A DNA stretch of 64,000 nucleotides from Roseateles oligotrophus (GTDB taxonomy: Bacteria; Pseudomonadota; Gammaproteobacteria; Burkholderiales; Burkholderiaceae_C). Below, one piece after another: positions 47,764 through 59,406 of the stretch. The translations under genes and the position numbers were made by a program. Position 1 is the first letter of the stretch; each line of letters starts with the position of its first letter. The stretch lies in contig NZ_JAJIRN010000006.1 of NCBI RefSeq assembly GCF_025717515.1, positions 62,001 through 126,000 on the forward strand. Direction: 5' to 3'. The notes under the pieces were generated by a model. The model was given only the letters and a program-made list of their open reading frames with translations. It ran no database searches and was not told the origin of the DNA.

Positions 47764-48131
47764 TCAAACGCAAAAATCTGGTTGTCGAAGACGAACGGCT
47801 CATTGCCCGCGATATTGCCATGCAACTCTGCGACCTGTGCTACGAACCGCTTGGCCCGGCGGGCACTGGCGAGCAGGCCATTGAGATGGCTGGAGAGTTA
47901 CGGCCCGACCTGGTGCTGATGGACGTGCACCTGGGCAGTGCCATGGATGGTATTGCCGCGGCCCAGGGCATCCGCACACAGTTTGATATAGCCACGGCTT
48001 TCCTAAGCGCCTTTTCTGGCGATGCGGATAGGGCAAGAGCCCAACTCGCAAAGCCCGCTGGCTATCTGGCAAAGCCATTCGAGGAGCATGAGTTGCGCGA
48101 GGTCATCGAGGCGGAGTTCAAAGACGGCTGA
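47760..48131 (+). CDS. Single-domain response regulator
   Basis: 123 residues, receiver only. Acidic pair Glu-Asp-Glu (VVEDERLIARD), phospho-acceptor Asp55 (LVLMDVHLG), switch residue Ser83 (AFLSAFS) and Lys105 (GYLAKPFEE). It has no output domain and so must act through protein contacts or as a phosphate sink. Coupled by ATGA to the PAS kinase. Confidence 0.92.
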   Translation: MIKRKNLVVEDERLIARDIAMQLCDLCYEPLGPAGTGEQAIEMAGELRPDLVLMDVHLGSAMDGIAAAQGIRTQFDIATAFLSAFSGDADRARAQLAKPAGYLAKPFEEHELREVIEAEFKDG

Positions 48132-48223
48132 CAGCGCAGTCGGGTCTGAATTTGGCCTTCCAGGAAGCGGCCCATCACGGTGGTCGGCTTCCAGCCTTCC
48201 GGCGTCGGGCGATCTCGCTTGAT

Positions 48224-48255
48224 GGGCGACTGCAACGGGCACCTTGCAGTCGCCC
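48224..48255. terminator. Strong hairpin after the receiver gene
   Basis: GGGCGACTGCAA, eight-base loop, TTGCAGTCGCCC: a perfect 12-base stem, 92 bases after the receiver stop and 97 before the end of convergent apbE. It is followed by a run of C, not T, so it is not a standard intrinsic terminator. It may still block both converging transcripts. The rest of 48132-48351 shows no gene. Confidence 0.5.
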
Positions 48256-48351
48256 CCCCCGAGCTAGCAAAGATCATCGGCACCTGCGCATCAACGAGCA
48301 AGCACGGACACCCACGCTGAACGCGATTGTTTGCACCCAGCGACGCGAACC

Positions 48352-49374
48352 TTACTCTGCCGTCAAGCCTTGCAAGGCCGGACTGAGAACCTCCCGCCAG
48401 TTCGGCTCCCTCAACACAAACAGGGCAGCCAACCCGAGTTGCGCCGCCAAGGTCGGTCCGGCAGTAGGCCCCAAGACCAGCAAGGCGGTCGCCCAAGCAT
48501 CGGCCAAACAGCAGCTCGGATGCAGCACGCTGACGCTGGCCAGGCCATGCCCGATCGGCTCGCCGCTGCGCGGGTCCATGGTGTGTGAGCGACGCAGTCC
48601 TTGCGCGTCGACGAAGATGTGCCGGTAGTCGCCGCTGGTGGCCACCGACAGCCCATGCAAAGCCAGCGCCATGTCCCTCAACCCATTGGCGCCGGGCACG
48701 CCTTCAAGCTGCACCCACCAGGGCTGGCCATTGGGCTTGAGGCCGCTGCCGCGCAGCTCACCACCGACCTCGACCAGATGGTGAACGAGGCCACAGTCGA
48801 GCAAGAAATCGGCCAGTTGATCGACCGCAAAGCCCTTGGCGATGCCGCACAGATCCAGTTCCAGGCCGCCCGGCTGCCAGACTTCAAAGTCGCCGCTGGC
48901 TTCACGCAGGGTCAGGTCTTGCCAACCGATGTTGGCAGGCGCTTGCACGCCGGCTGGCGGCACAAAGCCCGGCGCGTCATGGCGCAGACCGGCGCCAAAA
49001 CCCCATGCCCGCACCAAGGCCGCCGCCGTCGGATCAAAGGCGCCGCCGCTGGCCCGCGCCACGTCTAAGGCCATGATCAAGACCTGGGCGCAAGCCGGAG
49101 AAATGGCGACCCAGCTGGCCGGTTGAGCTCGCCCGAAGCGACACACATCCGAATCCGGCTCCCAGGGGCTCATGCGCGCCACCACCTCGGCCAGCCGGGC
49201 CTCCAGACCGCGCCGCACCGGCGCGCAGTCCAGCGCACGCGGCCCATAGAACTTGACGTTCCAACGGGTCCCCATGCTCAGGCCGTCGAGTGCATAAAGC
49301 TGCTCGCCCAGGACGGGCGTAACCGGGTCAATCCGCGCGGGCAGCAGCACGCGCCTTTCCATCGTTAGGGTCAT
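48352..49374 (-). CDS. apbE: FAD:protein FMN transferase (ApbE)
   Basis: 340 residues with the ApbE pattern: LDGLSMGTRWNVKFYG, GAFDPTAAALVRAWGFG, LDLCGIAKGFAVDQLADFL, SGDYRHIFVDAQGLRRSHTMDPRSGEPI and LADAWATALLVLG. It attaches FMN from FAD to a Thr/Ser in D-x-x-(S/T)-G-A-T motifs of exported proteins such as NqrC, RnfG or FMN-bind proteins. No signal peptide is evident at the N terminus (MTLTMERRVLL), so it may be membrane-independent or cytosolic. It ends a gene set with PepSY, DUF2271 and DUF4198 members, and the DUF2271 protein has a matching motif. Confidence 0.93.
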   Translation of the reverse strand: MTLTMERRVLLPARIDPVTPVLGEQLYALDGLSMGTRWNVKFYGPRALDCAPVRRGLEARLAEVVARMSPWEPDSDVCRFGRAQPASWVAISPACAQVLIMALDVARASGGAFDPTAAALVRAWGFGAGLRHDAPGFVPPAGVQAPANIGWQDLTLREASGDFEVWQPGGLELDLCGIAKGFAVDQLADFLLDCGLVHHLVEVGGELRGSGLKPNGQPWWVQLEGVPGANGLRDMALALHGLSVATSGDYRHIFVDAQGLRRSHTMDPRSGEPIGHGLASVSVLHPSCCLADAWATALLVLGPTAGPTLAAQLGLAALFVLREPNWREVLSPALQGLTAE

Positions 49375-49380
49375 CGCGAT

Positions 49381-49546
49381 TTAGAACTTGTCCGTGAATA
49401 GAAGGGCTGAGGGAGGCGAGGTGATTTGGGCGCAGGGCTAGGCGCAAAGCGCAGCGATACCCGCTGGTATCGCGAGCATTTGCAACAACGCCATGCGTTC
49501 AAAGCGACCGCCGCGCCGACCCCGGCTATTCACGGATAAGTTCTTA
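49381..49546. repeat. Long palindromic intergenic element (copy 2)
   Basis: Ends TTAGAACTTGTCCGTGAATAG (49381-49401) and CTATTCACGGATAAGTTCTTA (49526-49546) are reverse complements with two mismatches in 21. The centre has a perfect hairpin GCGATACC-CGCT-GGTATCGC (49454-49473). The right end includes the stop codon of the DUF4198 gene. It lies between that gene and apbE within the same operon direction. Internal resemblance to the element at 41597: both have (C/G)(A/T)TG...GTTG...ATGCTCG before the centre, reading copy 2 on the minus strand. Confidence 0.8.
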
Positions 49547-50359
49547 CTTGGGCAGTACCTCAAAAGTGGCGCTGTAACGGTAGCGCTTGGCAGGCTGCTC
49601 GGCCGTGGCGGCCGATTCGTGACCCAAGCCCAGCCAATAGCGACCGGGCTCGGCCCAGGTGATTTTCAACTCGCCCTGTGCGTCGGTTTTCAGCGTCAGC
49701 TCGCCGAGCTTGTAGCGGTAGCGACTGCCGCCGCGCAAGACGGTCACGGTCGCATCCGGCAGCGGCTTGCCGTCAAGCAGCAGGCGCAGATGCACGGCGT
49801 CGCCATTGGAGAGATCGGTGACCGGCGTCAAGGCTTGCAGGGCCAGACCCTCGCTGCCGGGCTGAGCGGGCGGCAGGCCGGCTCGCTCCTTGCTGACAAA
49901 GGTCTCGCTGAGCATCCAGGTGCGCGTGACTTGCAGTTCCTGGGCCTCGGCCGGGATCTGCGCGGCCATCTCAGACGGCTTGCCGCGCCAGCGCTTGGTG
50001 TCGCCGCCCAGCTTGTAGCTGGCGAACACCGACTCGGCGTTGTTGCTGATGCGGTAGGTTCCGACCTGTTCGAGCTTGACATCGAAGCTAGTCCGGTTGC
50101 GCGCCGTGACGGCAGGCTCGGGCGTTAGCGCCTTGCCGTCAGGTCCGAGCACCAGCACTTGCCCCAGTTGCAGGCCGATCTCGTATTCGAACAACTCCTC
50201 GGAGGCGACCGCATCGATGCTGACCAGCGTCGGCTTGGCGCCGGCTGCCGCGTTGATATGCGCTGTTTGGGGCAGCAGCCAGGTGCGGTGCGCTTGCGCT
50301 GTGCCGGCCGCAAGCAGAGCCAAACCGGCCAAGCCAAGCGCTGTGATGGATAGTTTCAT
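49544..50359 (-). CDS. DUF4198 domain periplasmic protein
   Basis: 271 residues. Signal peptide (ITALGLAGLALLAAGTAQA) ending before HRTWLLPQTAHINAAAG. The body is beta-sandwich-like, as in the DUF4198 / NikM-like cobalt-nickel-uptake periplasmic family (KPTLVSIDAVASEELFEYEIGLQLGQVLVLGPDG; LKTDAQGELKITWAEPGRYWLGLGHE). The His at the mature N terminus (A-H-R) is typical of metal-binding members. In this operon iron rather than nickel is likely. Start ATG 50359; the reading frame beyond it has no ATG. Confidence 0.88.
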   Translation of the reverse strand: MKLSITALGLAGLALLAAGTAQAHRTWLLPQTAHINAAAGAKPTLVSIDAVASEELFEYEIGLQLGQVLVLGPDGKALTPEPAVTARNRTSFDVKLEQVGTYRISNNAESVFASYKLGGDTKRWRGKPSEMAAQIPAEAQELQVTRTWMLSETFVSKERAGLPPAQPGSEGLALQALTPVTDLSNGDAVHLRLLLDGKPLPDATVTVLRGGSRYRYKLGELTLKTDAQGELKITWAEPGRYWLGLGHESAATAEQPAKRYRYSATFEVLPK

Positions 50360-50370
50360 ATGTATTCCCC

Positions 50371-50886
50371 TCAAGGTTTGACCGACAAAGACAAGGCGCC
50401 CAACTCATGCTCGCCCTGCACGCTGACCTGCGAAGCTGAAGCAATCGGCAACTGCAGGGCCAAGCGCTGAACCTCGCGGCCGCCGCCCTCGCGGGCGACT
50501 TCCACCACCAGCTCATATTTGCCGGCGGGCAGGCGCCCCAGGCTCTTGCTCAGGTCGACTTTGTGTTCGCCCACCGGGCGGGTGGCGCCGCTGACGCCGT
50601 CCATCGGCATGCTGAGATCGCGGCCGCTCTTGCGCCACCACTGGCGCATATCGGGCAGCCATTTGGCGCCGGCGTTATTGGCCTTTTTCTGGTCATACCA
50701 GACCGCCAGACTGGTGGCGGGCTCGCCGGCCCGCTCGGCCCATATCGCCACATAAGGGCGGTGGTATTCGGCCACATTGAGGCGCGGCAGCTCCAGACTG
50801 AGCTGCACTTCGGCGGCCCAGGCGGGCAGCGCGGTGCTCGCACTGGCAAGCAAGACCGTGTAGGAAAGAAGAAGTTTGTTTTGCAT
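50371..50886 (-). CDS. DUF2271 protein with flavinylation-type motif
   Basis: 171 residues. Signal peptide to about PAWAAE (25/26), then the DUF2271 domain (LELPRLNVAEYHRPYVAIWAERAGEPATSLAVWYDQ). The stretch MDGVSGATRPVGEHKVDL holds Asp96-Gly-Val-Ser-Gly-Ala-Thr102. This fits D-x-x-(S/T)-G-A-T, the site where ApbE links FMN through a phosphoester to Thr. DUF2271 proteins occur with PepSY and DUF4198 genes in flavinylation-associated clusters. So it is predicted to be a periplasmic flavoprotein that takes electrons from the PepSY membrane partner. That it is flavinylated is inference; the motif and the apbE neighbour are directly visible. Confidence 0.88.
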   Translation of the reverse strand: MQNKLLLSYTVLLASASTALPAWAAEVQLSLELPRLNVAEYHRPYVAIWAERAGEPATSLAVWYDQKKANNAGAKWLPDMRQWWRKSGRDLSMPMDGVSGATRPVGEHKVDLSKSLGRLPAGKYELVVEVAREGGGREVQRLALQLPIASASQVSVQGEHELGALSLSVKP

Positions 50887-50895
50887 GGAGAAAGT

Positions 50896-51561
50896 TCAAT
50901 GAACAAATACAAGTAGCAAGACGACCGGCAGCAGCAAACCTGCGGCCACCAGGGGCCAGACGCTGCGGCGCTTGGCCGCGTGCATCTTCAGAATCAACAA
51001 GCCGGTGATCGCAAAAAGCAGGCTGGCGACGGCGAACAGATCGATGAACCAGCTCCAGACCTGGCCGGTATGGCGCCCTTTGTGCAGATCATTCAGATAG
51101 GCGACGGCGCCGCGCTCGCTGCGCTCGAACTCGGCCTCACCACTGGGCAAGGCGATGCGCAGCCAGGCGTCGCCGCCGGGGCGTGGCAGGGACAAATAGA
51201 GTTCGTCAGGCGCCCATTCGGCCAAAAGGCCTTCGGTCTTGAAGTCCCATTGCTGGCGCAACCAATATTGCAAGGGCGGCGGCAACTCGGACTTCTTGGT
51301 GCCCGAATGTGCAGCCACCAGCGTGGCCCGCAGCACCGCGTCGGGCAACTGCGCCTGCCCGCTCGAAATCCTTGCCTTGGATTCAAACAAGCCGGCATTA
51401 TTCAGCGTTAGCCCCGTGACGCTGAACATCAGCAGCGCCACCAGGCTGATTGCGCTGCTGACCCAATGCCACAGGTGCAATTGCTTCAGGTAGGCGGCCC
51501 GGCTCTTGGCCTGCGCTTTTGTCGGCGCTGGCTCGCCGGCAATATAGGCAGTAGCGCTCAT
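50896..51561 (-). CDS. PepSY-associated membrane protein
   Basis: 221 residues with three TM helices: [20 protein letters not shown] (about 38-58), a periplasmic PepSY-like part, [20 protein letters not shown] and [17 protein letters not shown]. His residues at membrane borders ([21 protein letters not shown]) recall haem-binding PepSY_TM proteins. A plausible role is moving electrons across the membrane to a periplasmic acceptor. ATG 51561 overlaps the stop of the upstream dioxygenase gene by four bases. Order on the minus strand: receptor, dioxygenase, PepSY, DUF2271, DUF4198, apbE. Confidence 0.88.
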
Positions 51562-52241
51562 GTCTCGGCCCATTGCCGCAAGAGGTTGTGATAGTGGCCG
51601 CTCAAACTGACGGCCTCGTCAATCTCGCCAAAGCGAGCGCGCAGGCTCTGAATGCTTTGATCGAGCTGATAGAGCATCGCGCGGCGGCCGTCGTCGCGCA
51701 CCATGCTCTGGGTCCAGAAAAAGGCGGCGATGCGTTCGCCCGAGCTCACCGGCATCACCTGATGCAAGCTGGTCGACGGGTACAAGACCAAGTCGCCCGC
51801 AGGCAGCTTGACCTCATGGCTGCCATAGCTGTCCTGCACCACCAACTCGCCGCCGACATAGTCATCCGGCTCGCACAGGAACAGCGTGCTCGACACATCG
51901 CTGCGCAGCGGCTGATGGCTGCCCATTTGACTCATCACCGCGCCGTCCACATGCAGGCCGTAATGCTCGCCGCCGGCATAGCGGTTGAACAAGGGGCTGA
52001 GCATGCGCAAAGGCAAGGCCGCAGAGAAGAACTGCGCATGAGCCTTCAGCCGCTGCTGGATCAGCTGACCCAGTTCCACCGCCAAGGCCGAGCCGGGCTT
52101 GAGCTGCTGGTTGCGCTTGACCTGCGCACCCAAGGCTCCCACCGTCGCGCGGCCATCGCCCCACTCGCCCTCGTTCAGCAAACGTTCACGGAACTCGCCC
52201 ACTTCGGCGGCCGTCAGCACGCCCTGGATATGCAGCAACAT
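51558..52241 (-). CDS. piuC: PKHD-type Fe(II)/2-oxoglutarate dioxygenase (PiuC/YbiX)
   Basis: 227 residues. Iron ligands His97 and Asp99 ([11 protein letters not shown]) and His160 ([10 protein letters not shown]), with Arg170 ([10 protein letters not shown]) for 2-oxoglutarate. It is the partner usually found with Fiu/PiuA-type TonB receptors and is iron-regulated in Pseudomonas and E. coli; its substrate is unknown. It starts 31 bases downstream of the receptor gene stop and is coupled to the PepSY gene. Confidence 0.93.
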
Positions 52242-52272
52242 CGTCGCCCTGCCCTTTTCTAGTCTTGCTTGA

Positions 52273-54672
52273 TCAGTACTTGAGATTCAGCGCCAGGCCC
52301 ATGCTGCGCGGCGCGCCCAGCGTGAAGCGGTTGCGCCCGTTGTTGACCGCGGCCAGATAGAACTTGTCGGCCAGGTTGGACACATTGAACTGCAGGCCGA
52401 GGTTCTTGTTGATCTCATAGGCCGCCATCGCGTCGAACACCCAGTAGCTCGGGATGCCGGCTATGCCGATCACAGGCGCCGCGCCGTTATTGACCTGCGT
52501 GGTCTGGCTGGCGGTGTAGCGCGCGCCACCGCCCAGGCTCAGGCCCTGCAACAAGCCATCGGGCAGCTTGTAGTTGACCCAAGACGTAAAGCTCAACTTC
52601 GGCGTGTAGACCAGCTGAGCGCCGGTCTGCACATCGACCTGGCCGGGCAGCACCGTGACCGCCTCGTTGACCTTGCTGTCCATCCACACCAGCCCGGCCT
52701 GCAATTGCAGGTTGCTCGACACCGCGCCGGCCGCGCCCAACTCCAGGCCCTTGACCGTCTTCTTGCCGTATTGCGTCACTTCGCCGGTGGCGCTGCCGGC
52801 GCGGGCCAATTCATTCTCGTTCTCGGAGCGGAACAGCGCGGCGGTCACCAGCATTTGCTTGTCGAACAAGTCCCATTTCGCGCCCAGCTCCAAGTTATTG
52901 GCCTGCTGGGGCTTCAAGTTAGCTGCGTTGATGCTGACCGCCTTGGTGTCGCCACTGGGCGTCGCGCTGCTGAGCGCAAAGTTGTCGCTGCCGGGCGGCT
53001 TTTGCGAGGTGGCATAGGACAGGTAAACGCTGCCGTCGGCGCTTGGCTTGAACAGCAGGCCGAGCTTGCCGCTGAGCAAGCTGTCGCTACCCGCCAAGGC
53101 GGTGGCGGCCACCGGCGGCGTGGCCGTGGCGGGGATGCTGGTGTACTCGGTGCGGAAGCGCTCGGCACGCAGGCCCGCGCTCAGCTGCCAGCGATCGCTG
53201 AGGTCCAGGGTGTCGAACAAAAAGGCCGCAGCGGTGGTGGTCTCGCCGGCCGTGCTGGCGCCGTTGCGGGTCAGCGGCGCGAACTTGGCATTGACCGAGG
53301 GCGCATACAGATTGGCGCGGTCGCCATCTGTATTGACGTAAGCAAAGCCGGCCGTGTTTTGCTTTTCATGCGTGAACTCGACACCGGTGCTGATATTGTT
53401 TTTGACGCCGGCAAGCGTGAACGCGCTGTTCAGGCTGGTCTGGTTGGCCAGAATCTGGTTGCGCTGATCGCGGCCCAGGCGGGCGCGGCCTACCGTCCAG
53501 TCTGCGGGTTTGGCGGCATCACCGATGATGGACCAATTGCCGGGCGAGCTGCTGATGATGATGTTGGTCAGATTCATGTCCTGCTGGGTGCGACCAAAGC
53601 GCGAGATATTGCGCAGGCTGCTGCCCGGCGCGAAGTCATGCTCCAGGAGCAGGGTCAACATATCGGCTTGCGTGTTGTCGAAATCGTTCTTGCTGCCGTA
53701 GAAGTTGCTGCGATCGACCGGCTTGATCGCCGTGGCCAGCACGCCACCCACCGGCGGTTTGGCATTGGCACCGGCCAGATCCTTGAAAACCAGCTGATTG
53801 CTAAAGCCCATCAAGCCCACGCCGGGGATGCCGCCGTCCGGCGTGGCATCCTGGTCCACATGCAGATAGCTCAGCGTCGCGCGGGTGGCTGTGCCCAGGC
53901 CCAGCGTCAAGGAAGGGGCCACGCCCCAACGGTTGCGCTCCAGCACATCGCGGCCCTGCACATTGCCGCGGTCGCTGAACACATTCAGACGGAATGCCGC
54001 GCCGGGCAGACCGAGGTCGAGCTTTTTGTTCAGATCGGCCGTCACGCGCACGCGGCTGCCGCTGGAGACCTGCGCCGAACCCTCGGCGAAGTCCCGTAAC
54101 TGCGCCTTCTTGCTGACCATATTGATGAAGCCATTGGGCGAGCCGCGGCCGTTGTCGGCGCCGCTCGGGCCCTTGACCACTTCGACCGCCTCGGTGTTGA
54201 AGGTGTCGCGGGTGATACCGCCGAGGTCGCGCACGCCGTCCACAAAGATGTTGGCGCTGGCGTCGAAGCCACGCATGAAAACGGTGTCGCCGGTATTGGT
54301 GTTGCCGTTCTCGCCCAGGGTGAAGGTGATGCCGGGCGTGTTGCGCAAGGCCTCGCTCAAAGACGCAGTGCCCTGCTGCTGGATCAACTCACGGTTGATC
54401 ACGGTGACGGTCTGCGGCGTGTCCAGCAGCGGCTTGACGAACTTGGCCGACGAGGCCGACTCGGCCTTGAATTCGTTCTCGACCACGGCCTTGGCCTTGG
54501 CGCGCACCACCGGCAGCGCCTTGTCGGCCGACTCTGTAGTTTGGGTCTGCGCCCATGCGCCGATCGGCAGCGTCAGGGCCAGCAAGGTCGCGCCGGCGAC
54601 CGTCGAAGAAGAAGATGCGGATGAAACGCTGGCCGGCATAGCCGCATGCTTGCGGCTCTTGATGAAAGACAT
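52273..54672 (-). CDS. TonB-dependent siderophore receptor (Fiu/PiuA-like)
   Basis: 799 residues. Signal peptide ending near GAWAQ, TonB-box area, plug ([90 protein letters not shown]), then a 22-strand-type barrel ending [12 protein letters not shown]. The TIGR01783-type siderophore receptor pattern and the piuC partner suggest catecholate iron uptake. A Fur-like site lies 114 bases before the start. It heads the operon with the flavinylation genes. Confidence 0.95.
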
Positions 54673-54786
54673 TGAGGAACACTCCAGGGATCGAATTGGA
54701 TTTCTTCGAGCGCGGGCGCTGCGCCGCTTTTTTTGCGTGCGCGCCTTACCTGGGGATAGCCTGGGTCTACTCTGCGACAGAACTCA

Positions 54787-54806
54787 AATGATAAACGTTC
54801 TTATTT
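54787..54806 (-). promoter_or_regulatory. Probable Fur box before the siderophore receptor
   Basis: AATGATAAACGTTCTTATTT (plus-strand reading) matches the classical Fur repeat AATGATAAtCaTTaTcATT at most positions and is imperfectly palindromic. It lies in AT-rich DNA 114-134 bases before the receptor ATG, so iron-Fur repression of the operon is likely. Confidence 0.7.
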
Positions 54807-54822
54807 AGATTTGCAAATCTAA
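54805..54822. promoter_or_regulatory. 18-bp perfect palindrome next to the Fur box
   Basis: TTAGATTTGCAAATCTAA is an exact palindrome, overlapping the Fur-like site by two bases. It lies 15 bases below the end of the sensor kinase gene. It could be a second operator (for example for the neighbouring response regulator or a second Fur dimer) or the hairpin of a terminator, but no T tract follows. Confidence 0.6.
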
Positions 54823-54836
54823 GTGAGCTTGCGTGT

Positions 54837-56216
54837 CTATTCAAGCGAAAGCGGCAAGATGATTTGCGCCTCCAGGCCGCCCCCGTCCCGGTTCGCCAAG
54901 GAGAAGCGCGCGCCCAGCGCAGCCGACAGCTGCTGCGCGATGGCCAAGCCCAAACCGGTGCCGCCGGTGCTGCGGTTGCGCGAACTCTCCACCCGGTAAA
55001 AGGGTTGCAGCACGGCCGCCAACTGATCGGGAGGGATGCCGGGGCCACGGTCCCGCACGGAGATACACAAAGCCTCGGCCGAGGGCTGGTCGACCCAGAC
55101 CTCCACGTCCTGGCCAAACTTGAGCGCGTTGTCCAGCAAGTTGACGACCATGCGGCGCAGCGTGTGGGGGCGCGTCACCAAGACTGCCTTGAGCTCGCCA
55201 CCGAGTTGAACCGAATGGCCGGCGTCCACATAGTCGCAAACCAGGCTGTCGAGCAAGGCGCCGAGGTCGACCCGGCACGCCGCTTCGTTGACACTTTGCG
55301 CGCTGCGAGCGTAGGCAATACCCTCCTCCACCATCGCCTGCATGGCGTCGAGGTCGCGGCCCAGCTTGTCGCGCAGCAGCGCGTCGTCCAGCAAGTCGGC
55401 GCGCAAGCGCATGCGGGTGATCGGCGTTTGCAAGTCATGCGAGATGGCGGCCAGCAACTGCACCCGCTCGGCCAGATGATCGGTGATGCGTTGCTGCATC
55501 GCGTTGAAGGCCGCGGCCGCGCGCGCCACCTCGGTCGGCCCGTCTTCGGCAATCGCCGCGCCCTGCAGTGACGTTCCCACGCATTGGCCCAAGCCTTGGC
55601 CCAAACGCTCGGCCGCTTCGGCCAGCGCTTGCAAGGGCCGGGTGGCCTGGCGCACACCCAGCCAGATAAAGGCCAGCATGATCAGCACCTGGCTGACAAA
55701 CAGCGCGCCACCCCACCAGGAGACCGGGAAGCGCAGCTTGAAGACCTGAATCGTCAGCGGCGTGCCGTCCCGCAACAGCAAGCGAAGCCGCATCTCTTCG
55801 TCCGGCGTCGCCCCGGCAAGCACCGCCAAGGGGTAGCCGGTGCCCAGTTCCTGGCTCAAGTCGGCCAACAGCTCCCGCTTGCGTTTGGCTTGCAGTAGCT
55901 TGGCATCCATCACAAGGCCGGCAGCATCGACCGGCCCGAGGCTGAAGCGGTAAGACTTGCGTTGCATCTTGTCGAGCCAGGCGCTGCGCAAGGCCGGGCC
56001 GCTGATCTCCAGCTGCTGGACCAAGACGCCGGTGTCTTTGGCCAAATGCTCGCCGACCTTTGTTGCTTCGAAATCGAAGATGTCCAGATGACTCAAACCC
56101 GCGCCCACGATGTGAGCGGCCAGCAGCGCCGCCGACAAGACCAGCGCCAAGCGGCCAAACAGCGATGCGGGCAAGTAGCGCGTTAAACGCTCGGCGATTG
56201 AGCGCATCACCGTCAC
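54837..56216 (-). CDS. Sensor histidine kinase (EnvZ-like)
   Basis: 459 residues. TM1 (FGRLALVLSAALLAAHIVGAG), a periplasmic part of about 125 residues (42-165), TM2 (ALFVSQVLIMLAFIWLGV), HAMP (TRPLQALAEAAERLGQG), His260 in LLAAISHDLQTPITRMRLRADLL, and ATPase motifs (LLDNALKFG, VRDRGPGIPPDQL, GGTGLGLAIAQQLSAALGA). GTG at 56216 overlaps the regulator stop by four bases, hence the choice; ATG 56207 is also possible. Signal unknown. It is the last gene of an operon that starts with an ABC exporter. Confidence 0.93.
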   Translation of the reverse strand: MTVMRSIAERLTRYLPASLFGRLALVLSAALLAAHIVGAGLSHLDIFDFEATKVGEHLAKDTGVLVQQLEISGPALRSAWLDKMQRKSYRFSLGPVDAAGLVMDAKLLQAKRKRELLADLSQELGTGYPLAVLAGATPDEEMRLRLLLRDGTPLTIQVFKLRFPVSWWGGALFVSQVLIMLAFIWLGVRQATRPLQALAEAAERLGQGLGQCVGTSLQGAAIAEDGPTEVARAAAAFNAMQQRITDHLAERVQLLAAISHDLQTPITRMRLRADLLDDALLRDKLGRDLDAMQAMVEEGIAYARSAQSVNEAACRVDLGALLDSLVCDYVDAGHSVQLGGELKAVLVTRPHTLRRMVVNLLDNALKFGQDVEVWVDQPSAEALCISVRDRGPGIPPDQLAAVLQPFYRVESSRNRSTGGTGLGLAIAQQLSAALGARFSLANRDGGGLEAQIILPLSLE

Positions 56217-56956
56217 GCGCTGTCCCCGCGCAGCTGCACCGGCGTCGAAAACATATAGCCCTCACTGCGCACCGTCTTGATGAAGTCGGTCTCGCCCGCA
56301 TCGTCACGCAAGCGCTTGCGCAAACGGCTGACCAGAATGTCGATCGATCGATCAAAGCTATCCGCCTCGCGGCCCTGGGTCAGGCTCAGCAATTGGTCGC
56401 GGGTCAAGACCCGCTGCGGGTGCTCCAGAAACACCCGCAGCAGCCGGTACTCGGCGCCGCTGAGCGAGACCAGGGCGCCGCTGCCGTCCAGCAGATGGCG
56501 GGTATGGGTGTCCAGCGTCCAGGCGCCGAAGCTCAGCAGATGGCCGCTGTCCTTGAGCTGCAAATGGGCCGGCACCATGCGGGCGCGCCGCAAGACGGCC
56601 TTGATGCGGGCCAGCAATTCGCGCGAGGCGAAGGGCTTGGTCAGGTAATCGTCGGCGCCCATCTCCAGGCCCAGGATGCGATCGGCCTCTTCGTTACGGG
56701 CTGTCAATAGCAAGATCGGCACTGGGTTGGCGGCCCCGGTCTGGAGCTCGCGGCACAGCGTCAAGCCGTCCTCGCCCGGCATCATCAGGTCCAGCACGAT
56801 CATGTCGACGCGGGCGCTGCTGCTCATCAGCGCCCGCATCTGCCGGCCATTGGCCGCCGTGCTGACCTTGAAGCCGTTCTTTTCAAGGTACTGGCGCAGC
56901 AACTCGCGAATGTCTTCGTCATCGTCGACGACCAGAATGTGATCCTCTTTTTCCAT
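56213..56956 (-). CDS. OmpR-family response regulator
   Basis: 247 residues. Receiver with Asp11-Asp12-Asp13 cluster, phospho-acceptor Asp56 (MIVLDLMMPGEDG), Thr85 and Lys108 (DDYLTKPFA), then a winged-helix DNA-binding domain (LSGAEYRLLRVFLEHPQRVLTRDQLL; SIDILVSRLRKRLRDD; IKTVRSEGYMF). It starts 17 bases after the ABC permease stop and its stop overlaps the kinase. The likely target is its own operon or the adjacent siderophore-receptor operon. Confidence 0.95.
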   Translation of the reverse strand: MEKEDHILVVDDDEDIRELLRQYLEKNGFKVSTAANGRQMRALMSSSARVDMIVLDLMMPGEDGLTLCRELQTGAANPVPILLLTARNEEADRILGLEMGADDYLTKPFASRELLARIKAVLRRARMVPAHLQLKDSGHLLSFGAWTLDTHTRHLLDGSGALVSLSGAEYRLLRVFLEHPQRVLTRDQLLSLTQGREADSFDRSIDILVSRLRKRLRDDAGETDFIKTVRSEGYMFSTPVQLRGDSA

Positions 56957-56973
56957 ACCGAGCTTTATAGCCT

Positions 56974-59402
56974 CTATTGGCAGGCGATCGCTTCGCGGAC
57001 CGAAGTTCTTGAGGCCTGCCAGGCCGGCACAATACTGGCCATGACGGCGAGCCCCAAGCTGATCAAGAGCCAGATCCAGATGCCGCTGGGATCAAAGCGG
57101 AAGTCCAGCACGCTGCCCAGCATCAGGCCCACCAACAAATCCCCCATCGCCGCGCTGAGCGGCCAAGCCGCAGCCATAGCGAGCACGAAGCTGATCAAGC
57201 CGATCAAGACCGCCTCGCTGACCACCATCAGCCCGACCCCCTGGGGGCTGGCGCCGATTGCCCGCAGCACGCCCATCTCGCGGCGCCGCTCCAGCACATT
57301 CAGGCTCATCGTCGTCATCAGCCCCAGGCCACCGACGCCGCCGATGATGGCGGCCATGATGATCAGGAAGACATAAATCATCAGCATATGTTCGTCAATC
57401 ACCGAGCGGCCCTCGCCCTTGCTATAGCTGCCGCGCGCCTGCACGCCTTGCGAGGCCATTTGGCGGTCGACTTCGGTCTTGACGGCTTTGATCGCCGCTT
57501 CGTCGTTTTGGCTCAAGACCAGGCTGACCGCGTTGCTGAGGCTAGGCTGCTTCAAGTCAAAAAACGCCTTCGGGATATAGGCGGTCGCGGGGCGGAAGGC
57601 TTCTCTGGCGATGCCCACCACCTTGAAGTCGGCCTGCTGGACGCCGGTTTTGCGGCTGCCCAGCTGCAGCCTGACGGTGCTGCCGATCAGGCTGCCGGGC
57701 GACTTCTTTGCCAGCACATGGTTGAGCACGACCGCATCGGTCTCACCGGGCAGCAACATACGGCCGGCGACGATGTGAGGCTTGAACAGCGCCGTCTGGG
57801 CCGGCAAGGCCACGACCGCGAAGTCACCGGCAGCGCCCTCACCGTTGGCGTCAACAATGATGCTAGGAGCCTTGCCGTTATCCAGAATGGCGCCATCGGT
57901 CTTGATCCAATATTCCGCCTGTTTGATACCGTTGCTCGCTTGCAGCGCGCGGCCGATCAGCGCATCCGGCGTCAGCTCGGCCAGGCTGACCGTCAGGTCG
58001 AAGCGCTGGGTCTCGAACAAGCTGTCCAGCGTGGCCATGATGGACGCCCGCACATTGAGCGCGGCCATGAAGAACACACCTGCGGTCGACAAGGTCAGCA
58101 GCGTCAGCAGCAGCCGGGTACGCTGGCGGAATGCGTTACGCAAGGCAAACAAGAGCGGACGCGCACCACGGCTGAGATTGAGCAGGGCGCGATCGATGGC
58201 GCTGGCGCCAAAGGCTTGCCGGGCCTGCTGGCTGACGCCGAAGTCGCTCAAGGCCGCCTGCACCGAGACGCCGCTGGCCTTCAGAATCGGCCGGGCCGCC
58301 GCCAGCAGCGGCACCAACACCCCCACCAAGGCGATCAAGACATAAAGCCAAACCGGCACGGCGAAGCTGTGGATGTCAAAGTTCAAAAACTCGCCCAAAT
58401 AGCGGCACAGCGTTTGAGCCGCCGCCAGGCCGGCGGGCACGGCCAACAGCAAGGCCGCCAGCCCCAAGAACAGTGCCTGGCTGAAATAGATGCGGGCAAT
58501 CTGCCAGCGCGAGCCGCCGATCGCTTTCATGACGCCGATCTGGCGGATCTGCCCCGCCATCAAGGCCAGGGTGAGGTTCACCACCAGCACGCCGCTGAGC
58601 AGCAAGACCAGCGCGCCGAAGCCGGCCATCACCAGCAGCAAGCTACCCATGATGCGGCTGTGCGGGTGCTCGCCCGGCACCGGCATATCGACCTTGCTGA
58701 CCGCGAGCCCCCGCGCCTCAAGCGTCTGCTGCACTTGCGCCAACACGTCGCGGATATGGGCGGGGTTGAAGCGATCTTGCGCCACCACGATCTTGAGCTG
58801 GTTCAAAAAAGGCTCTTCGCCGAGCTGAGCCAAGGTCTCTTGGCTGATATAGCCGTAGACGATACCGTCCATGCGCGCTTGCGCCTGGCCCACATCATGG
58901 ACGCGACCGCTGATTCGCAACTGCTGCTCTCGGCCCTGCCCGAGCTTGACCGTGAGGCTGACGCCCAGCCGGGTCTTGGCGACCTGAAAAGCATCCCGCT
59001 CGATCAAGACCTCACCCAGGGCCGGCGGCCAAGCGCCCTGCTCGGGTTGCAACGTGCTGACCTGCATCGCCCGGTAGTCCTTGACCACAAACAACGCCAA
59101 GCTGCGCCACTCGGCCGGGCCGGACTTGATTTTGCCCGCGACCACGCGGCGCGCCTCGGCCGCCCCGACGGCAGGGTTTTGCAGCACGGCCGCCAGAGTC
59201 GCTTCATCGACACGGTCGACAAACAGCGTCGCCGAGGCCGGATTGGTGGCCAGGTAGTCGTCATTGAGTTCGCGGGTCAGAATGGCATAACTGGCCAGCA
59301 CAGCGGTAAAGCCGCTCACACCCAGGGCGATGGCCAAGACCACCAGCAGCGTGCGGGTGCGTTCCTGCCAAAAGTCGGCAATGGCTTTGCGCCAGGAGCT
59401 GT

Positions 59403-59406
<4 letters not shown>
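56974..59406 (-). CDS. FtsX-like ABC transporter permease (YbbP-like)
   Basis: 810 residues. One TM at the N terminus (TRTLLVVLAIALGVSGFTAVLASY), a periplasmic MacB-type domain, FtsX core 1 (about 250-370), further TM near 440, a second periplasmic domain, and FtsX core 2 (LMIYVFLIIMAAIIGGVGGLGLMTTMSLNVLERRREMGVLRAIG) at the C terminus. This double layout with about ten TM is that of YbbP-type type VII ABC proteins, which use ATP for envelope work (lipoprotein or peptide handling, extrusion) rather than true transport in some cases. Overlaps the ATPase gene by four bases. Confidence 0.9.

Follow-up and report, generated by a model that had tools for sequence, protein, structure and literature searches.

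A Roseateles oligotrophus operon joining a Fiu-like receptor, PiuC and a PepSY–DUF2271 flavoprotein module, with a proposed role in reductive iron release

A predicted operon of six genes in a 64,000-nt stretch of the Roseateles oligotrophus genome (NZ_JAJIRN010000006.1; hereafter the window, in which all coordinates are positions) encodes a Fiu-like TonB-dependent receptor, a PiuC-type dioxygenase, a PepSY membrane protein, a DUF2271 protein with a flavinylation motif, a DUF4198 protein and ApbE. We propose, with a probability of roughly 0.7, that it is an iron-starvation operon for the reductive release of iron in the periplasm. Its redox module is the published PepSY-like flavinylation system, for which others have already proposed in print that it reduces ferric iron; for the whole operon, receptor to ApbE, we found no description in the open-access literature, of which the DUF2271 papers were covered in part. 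The operon is a compact gene set, and it bears on PiuC and its homologues, whose partnership with catecholate-type receptors is unexplained; cefiderocol resistance has been tied to alterations of these receptors and of PiuC. The genes are as follows.

52273..54672, minus strand: TonB-dependent receptor, Fiu-like, of the catecholate siderophore receptor family (NF007349 736.6 bits, cut-off 686; Pfam barrel 182 and plug 82 bits)
51558..52241, minus strand: PiuC/YbiX-type Fe(II)/2-oxoglutarate dioxygenase (PKHD_C 71 bits, 2OG-FeII_Oxy_3 53 bits; NF003975 327.5, cut-off 180)
50896..51561, minus strand: PepSY_TM-like membrane protein, 221 aa (PepSY_TM_like_2 PF16357 248 bits; PF03929 33.4, cut-off 28.8)
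50371..50886, minus strand: DUF2271 protein with a Sec-like signal peptide, predicted flavoprotein (Pfam 145 bits)
50581..50601, minus strand: codons of the flavinylation motif DGVSGAT, DUF2271 residues 96-102 (exact match)
49544..50359, minus strand: DUF4198 protein, signal peptide ending in AQA, predicted mature N-terminal His (Pfam 120 bits)
50288..50290, minus strand: codon of DUF4198 His24, predicted mature residue 1 (His in 78 of 78 rows)
48352..49374, minus strand: ApbE FAD:protein FMN transferase (FAD, flavin adenine dinucleotide; FMN, flavin mononucleotide), signal peptide not visible (Pfam 235 bits)

The layout described in a first-pass annotation of this DNA holds throughout: all six open reading frames lie on the minus strand with the ends given there, and the named families match above their Pfam cut-offs. 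The four-base ATGA overlap of PiuC and PepSY is found at 51558-51561, and the gaps are short (31 bp between receptor and PiuC, 9 bp between PepSY and DUF2271, and 11 bp between DUF2271 and DUF4198, if DUF4198 starts at the ATG at 50359 and not at the TTG listed first) except for the 169 bp before apbE.

In the proposed scheme, the receptor would take up a ferric chelate, perhaps of the catecholate type, as its family suggests. PepSY, a putative heme-type electron carrier in the membrane, would hand electrons to FMN on Thr102 of DUF2271, and this flavin would reduce Fe(III) in the periplasm. DUF4198, with its invariant predicted mature N-terminal His, may receive or shuttle the freed metal, and Fe(II) could then enter through FeoAB, which is encoded in the genome behind a similar operator. 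PiuC would work in the cytoplasm, where it would probably act on the ligand or else support the receptor, a coupling suggested by the cciT/cciO pair of Caulobacter; ApbE would load FMN onto DUF2271, either in the cytosol or in the periplasm. One FecCD-type permease was found in the genome, together with a binding protein, an ATPase and CobU, in a locus that looks like B12 uptake. Since the sole FecCD protein found stands beside CobU, there is no evident inner-membrane ferric-siderophore carrier of the FecCD class, the class that our search covered, and this favours periplasmic iron release followed by Feo entry. The first-pass annotation had sketched much of this scheme (Fur control, electrons passing through PepSY to FMN, ferric reduction, DUF4198 as a metal-binding partner). 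It agrees with published proposals and with the Fur control and iron phenotypes of the Caulobacter counterparts. Two points had escaped that annotation: none of the six operon genes is an obvious electron donor for PepSY, and ApbE lacks a recognisable signal peptide while its target has one.

Linkage of the receptor and PiuC to the redox genes

The full gene order is kept in 7 of 49 named DUF2271 loci (L002-L007 and L017; L-numbers denote fetched loci and G-numbers genomes), and 10 further loci of the 49 have a receptor and PiuC nearby in other arrangements: L019 and L031 from Sphingosinicellaceae, L035 from Tahibacter, and seven from Marinomonas or Maribrevibacterium. We also examined a sample of 300 Burkholderiales genomes, calling DUF2271 over the Pfam cut-off; matches under the cut-off in G003 and G181 are not among the loci, and L122, a weak second match of G112, is without a phmmer match. 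DUF2271 was present in 36 of the 300 genomes and PKHD_C in 100, and 32 of the 36 held PKHD_C as well (Fisher p 2e-13, a value that ignores kinship and that we do not use as proof). Where both were held, the PiuC-type and DUF2271 genes lay no more than 10 kb apart in 8 of 32 genomes, against 0.17 expected by random placement. Within about 10 kb on each side of DUF2271, a receptor and PiuC were both found in 8 of the 36 genomes; PiuC stood directly upstream on the same strand in 4 genomes, drawn from four family codes; in one of these 4 loci, L104, the fetched stretch lacks apbE.

A tree of three concatenated proteins (78 rows) was built by a quick method, and the program gave a warning of long branches; on this tree the label "linked to PiuC" changes 13 times and the label "same operon" 5 times. 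From the 13 changes it follows that the PiuC link arose or disappeared repeatedly. This repeated gain or loss supports a shared function of the receptor/PiuC pair and the reductase module, and it also shows that the PiuC link is optional. The pair itself has a familiar form: the Fiu-like receptor adjoins a PKHD-type dioxygenase, as in the Fiu/PiuA-PiuC (cciT-cciO) pairs, and His97, Asp99, His160 and Arg170 of PiuC, structures of which are present in the PDB, are invariant in 18 of 18 rows.

The linkage bears on whether the cluster might carry out another envelope redox task under iron starvation, such as thiol or peroxide chemistry, without any nutritional reduction of iron. Many roles have been proposed for flavinylated proteins in the accessible text of PMC8238504, and a direct activity assay of a DUF2271 protein was not found in the open-access literature, which was covered in part. 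Several lineages have the cluster close to a receptor and PiuC, and the Caulobacter genes have an EDTA (ethylenediaminetetraacetic acid) phenotype; both findings speak against such a task, and we regard it as quite unlikely.

The flavoprotein module

The first-pass annotation had read Asp96-Gly-Val-Ser-Gly-Ala-Thr102 of DUF2271 as an ApbE target, and the fit to the pattern is exact. Among 79 DUF2271 rows, a count that leaves out L116-L121 (found by Pfam and not by phmmer), the motif threonine corresponding to Thr102 is unchanged in all 79 and [ST]GA[ST] is intact in 68. The expected tie between motif and apbE is borne out in part: [ST]GA[ST] is intact in 56 of 61 rows with apbE in the fetched locus, but also in 12 of 18 without it (Fisher p 0.014, again ignoring kinship and not used as proof). 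In Meheust et al. 2021 (PMC8238504), as far as its text was accessible, the ApbE of A. ursilacus attaches flavin to DUF2271 at the motif, and clusters of this kind also contain DUF4198 and PepSY; from the A. ursilacus experiment we infer that FMN would be bound covalently to Thr102 here. The nearest relatives found, from Paucibacter and Roseateles, have DUF2271 proteins of 84-87% identity in the best three.

Two groups of loci depart from this picture. L116-L121, in which the motif ends in Ser (TGAS) and the Asp is absent in 4 of 6, have DUF2271 near apbE with no PepSY or DUF4198 match in the fetched stretch, and are a second setting of DUF2271. In L112-L115, the open frames that encode DUF2271 are long (528-783 aa), and T-[KR]-P-T replaces [ST]GAT; PepSY and DUF4198 matches are present, with no apbE match in the fetched stretch. 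This branch may have given up flavinylation, a weak reading because T-x-P-T forms also occur in three rows with apbE (L038, L093 and L101).

An ApbE without a visible signal peptide raises the question of where exported proteins are flavinylated. The ATG of ApbE lies 33 residues before the conserved domain Met, with an in-frame stop three codons upstream of it, and neither an N-terminal signal peptide nor a lipobox was found by hydropathy or by eye; DUF2271 has a Sec-like signal, called from its N-terminal hydropathy and by eye. The highest 11-residue hydropathy mean is 0.95 for ApbE, 1.95 for DUF2271 and 2.31 for DUF4198. Across loci, with guessed start codons, a mean of at least 1.6 is reached in 9 of 67 ApbE, 48 of 50 DUF2271 and 46 of 49 DUF4198 rows, and at least 2.0 in 4 of 67, 37 of 50 and 42 of 49, respectively. 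In 31 of the 67 ApbE rows the frame is bounded by a stop no more than 60 codons from the domain, and one of these (L046) reaches 2.0. The threshold of 2.0 would miss twin-arginine-like signals, because the second ApbE of the genome (L123, on contig 2), which has a twin-arginine-like start, scores 1.85. This second ApbE adjoins a nitrous oxide reductase gene and a gene for an 876-residue protein with FMN_bind (E 2.3e-4) and Fer4_5 domains, which we read as NosR. With the second ApbE placed among nos genes, the ApbE of the operon is therefore the likely enzyme flavinylating DUF2271.

Our boldest reading, which we hold to be less likely than not, is that ApbE of this operon family acts in the cytosol, flavinylating the DUF2271 precursor on the linear DGVSGAT sequence before export. 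If so, the flavin would travel out with the protein and no export of FAD would be needed, a maturation route that differs from the periplasmic ApbE model. In the accessible part of a review, most ApbE proteins seem to be secreted, one cytosolic ApbE works in Klebsiella, and a seven-residue tag suffices for flavinylation; the same part reports that, where ApbE had been knocked out, a cytosol-retained version failed to substitute for the exported enzyme. Possible alternatives are an unusual export route or no flavinylation at all. Twin-arginine export of DUF2271, which would ease flavinylation before export, was considered and set aside: a loose pattern occurs in 6 of 50 rows, all from Dyella and not from R. 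oligotrophus. Separately, a short R-V-L-[IV]-P-like stretch is seen near the ApbE N-terminus, ahead of the domain, in 32 of 67 rows with a loose pattern.

For PepSY, the predicted model has three long helices and a soluble domain (predicted local distance difference test score, pLDDT, 90.4; predicted template modelling score, pTM, 0.71). His32 and His160 are conserved in all 79 rows and the C-terminal His221 in 72, a pattern that would suit the heme binding put forward for PepSY proteins elsewhere; His194 is conserved in 64 rows and His29 in 58. The model matches the FoxB fold weakly; no convincing relative came from sequence searches of the PDB with PepSY, single or as a profile, and no NAD (nicotinamide adenine dinucleotide) domain was matched in it by Pfam. 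PepSY could instead be a permease that carries the intact ferric siderophore across the inner membrane, with reduction being secondary, and the authors of work on Alteromonas interpret PepSY proteins near iron-regulated receptors in this way. However, the protein here is modelled with three helices in 221 residues and adjoins a flavinylation target and its ApbE; in the accessible literature, moreover, FoxB counts as a known ferri-siderophore reductase, and the same activity has been proposed for HiuB. A permease thus seems very unlikely to us, and electron transfer from PepSY to the flavin of DUF2271 is the reading we prefer.

Iron control, metal specificity and flanking sequence

Two features lie ahead of the receptor gene.

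54787..54805, minus strand: Fur-like operator AATAAGAACGTTTATCATT (pattern match and counterparts in related loci)
54788..54817, minus strand: sigma-70-like promoter match (TTGCAA, 17 nt, TATCAT; or TTTGCA, 18 nt; number not above chance)

The Fur-like site named in the first-pass annotation is present, and it is supported because counterparts precede the receptor in six other loci and because the pattern also finds feoAB. In 6 of 6 other loci (L002, L003, L005, L006, L007 and L017; L004, whose contig begins within the receptor gene, was left out), a like site precedes the conserved IKSRKHA stretch of the receptor gene by 112-208 bp. Allowing up to two mismatches, the operator pattern made from these loci occurs at three places in the 5.76-Mb genome: this operon, feoA-feoB, and one place without an evident iron gene. 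The match at the operon is circular and that at feoAB less so; the latter overlies the start of the longest feoA reading frame, before the part that encodes the FeoA domain. With a wider Fur pattern, 6 sites were found when up to two mismatches were allowed, against 2 with a reversed control, and its sole 1-mismatch site is the AATAAGAACGTTTATCATT region; it did not return feoAB, and no iron gene was seen by eye at the other five sites. The region scores at most 12/19 on a classic 19-bp Fur consensus, a score of at least 12/19 being reached at 23 positions of the window on both strands; among the loci compared, L017 scores 16/19 and the others 12 or 13. The operator overlaps the -10 box common to both sigma-70-like matches found in 48000-55200, and these two matches are not above chance (1.0 in shuffles, standard deviation 0.9). 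Fur-type iron control of the operon is our proposal, fitting the Fur control of the Caulobacter counterparts, which in the accessible parts of PMC3751524, PMC11870441 and PMC12004947 are raised 12-51 fold (values tabulated for low iron and a fur mutant) and have a promoter to which Fur binds.

The first residue of the predicted mature DUF4198 is His in 78 of 78 rows, and Ala comes just before it in 77 (L040 is without a DUF4198 row). The protein shares the fold of the Ni-binding IsDUF4198; a PDB sequence search with DUF4198 alone gave nothing firm, a profile search matched Zcp, and no publication on Zcp was found in the open-access literature from 2023. The module could serve another metal, with PepSY and DUF2271 reducing copper, or handling nickel or zinc, and DUF4198 carrying that metal. 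The PepSY_TM protein CrpH, whose operon also encodes a copper TonB receptor, is thus a proposed reductase of copper; IsDUF4198 binds Ni2+ with a Kd of 18 nM, using His18 and the His at its N-terminus, as described in the available text of PMC12537917; Zcp, of the DUF4198 fold, was solved with Zn, Cu and Co (9mhi-9mhn), judging from the partial record; and Caulobacter CC3060 and CC3061 are also among the genes lowered in a zur mutant. Here, however, the receptor scores above the Fiu cut-off, the operator pattern is common to feoAB, and the Caulobacter and Alteromonas counterparts respond to iron. Moreover, the Ni ligand His18 is without a conserved counterpart, because no DUF4198 His besides His1 is at least 90% conserved in a 37-row alignment (the structure alignments used 37 of the 49 or 50 rows in hand). 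We consider a metal other than iron unlikely.

The wide gap before apbE holds one further feature.

49383..49544, no strand assigned: 162-bp imperfect palindromic repeat between DUF4198 and apbE (72% identity to its own complement)

The repeat extends as far as the final base of the stop codon of DUF4198, and the interval 49370-49556 has an RNA fold z of -4.7; Rfam gave no match at gathering scores in 48000-55500. The repeat is absent at the same place in L002 and L003, four full-length copies of 87% identity occur in one genome of the same genus, and some match, mostly to the core, is found in 15 of 60 genomes of the family. Judged by these properties, it is a MITE- or REP-like (miniature inverted-repeat transposable element or repetitive extragenic palindromic) repeat. 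Upstream of the operon, after a gap of 164 bp, an OmpR/EnvZ-like pair of regulator and sensor kinase and a large ABC permease lie on the same strand (54837-59406), and we count them outside the operon. In many Dyella loci a regulator/kinase pair adjoins the PepSY cluster too, but in divergent orientation.

Comparison with known systems

The closest known system is the PepSY-like flavinylation system of Meheust et al. 2021 (PMC8238504), which in its accessible text likewise combines PepSY, ApbE, DUF2271 with [ST]GA[ST] and DUF4198 in one cluster, with a proposed role in iron; 231 of its PepSY-like clusters encode a TonB receptor. The R. oligotrophus operon has the marks of this system, namely PepSY in a flavinylation cluster, ApbE together with the DUF2271 motif, and a target gene with a signal peptide. 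It differs in its PiuC, which the accessible text does not mention, in an ApbE without a visible signal peptide, and in having no NAD domain or donor gene. The PiuA-PiuC and Fiu-YbiX pairs likewise consist of a receptor followed by a PKHD-type dioxygenase, and an adjoining DUF2271 module is not mentioned for them in the sources as available. For DUF4198, the likeness to IsDUF4198 (9GCB; PMC12537917) and Zcp (9mhi-9mhn) is one of fold, IsDUF4198 also having a mature N-terminal His; as far as these records go, the second metal-ligand His is not conserved here and the gene setting differs. Caulobacter hiuABC (PMC13001220, accessible portion) likewise joins a receptor to a PepSY protein that would free siderophore iron in the periplasm, but its PepSY is FoxB-like with a small membrane partner, and DUF2271 has 0 occurrences in that text.

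Two other Caulobacter loci together hold counterparts of the genes found here, as described in the accessible parts of PMC3751524, PMC11870441 and PMC12004947. CCNA_03155-03159 likewise comprises PepSY, DUF2271, DUF4198 and ApbE genes under Fur, and cciT/cciO comprises a Fiu/PiuA-like receptor and a PiuC homologue, also under Fur; both are needed in EDTA. In Caulobacter these are two separate loci, with a flavoprotein reductase gene in the cluster, whereas in R. oligotrophus they form one operon from which the reductase gene is absent. By joining receptor, PiuC and flavin reductase, this one operon suggests a single pathway for the two sets found separately in the Caulobacter screen.

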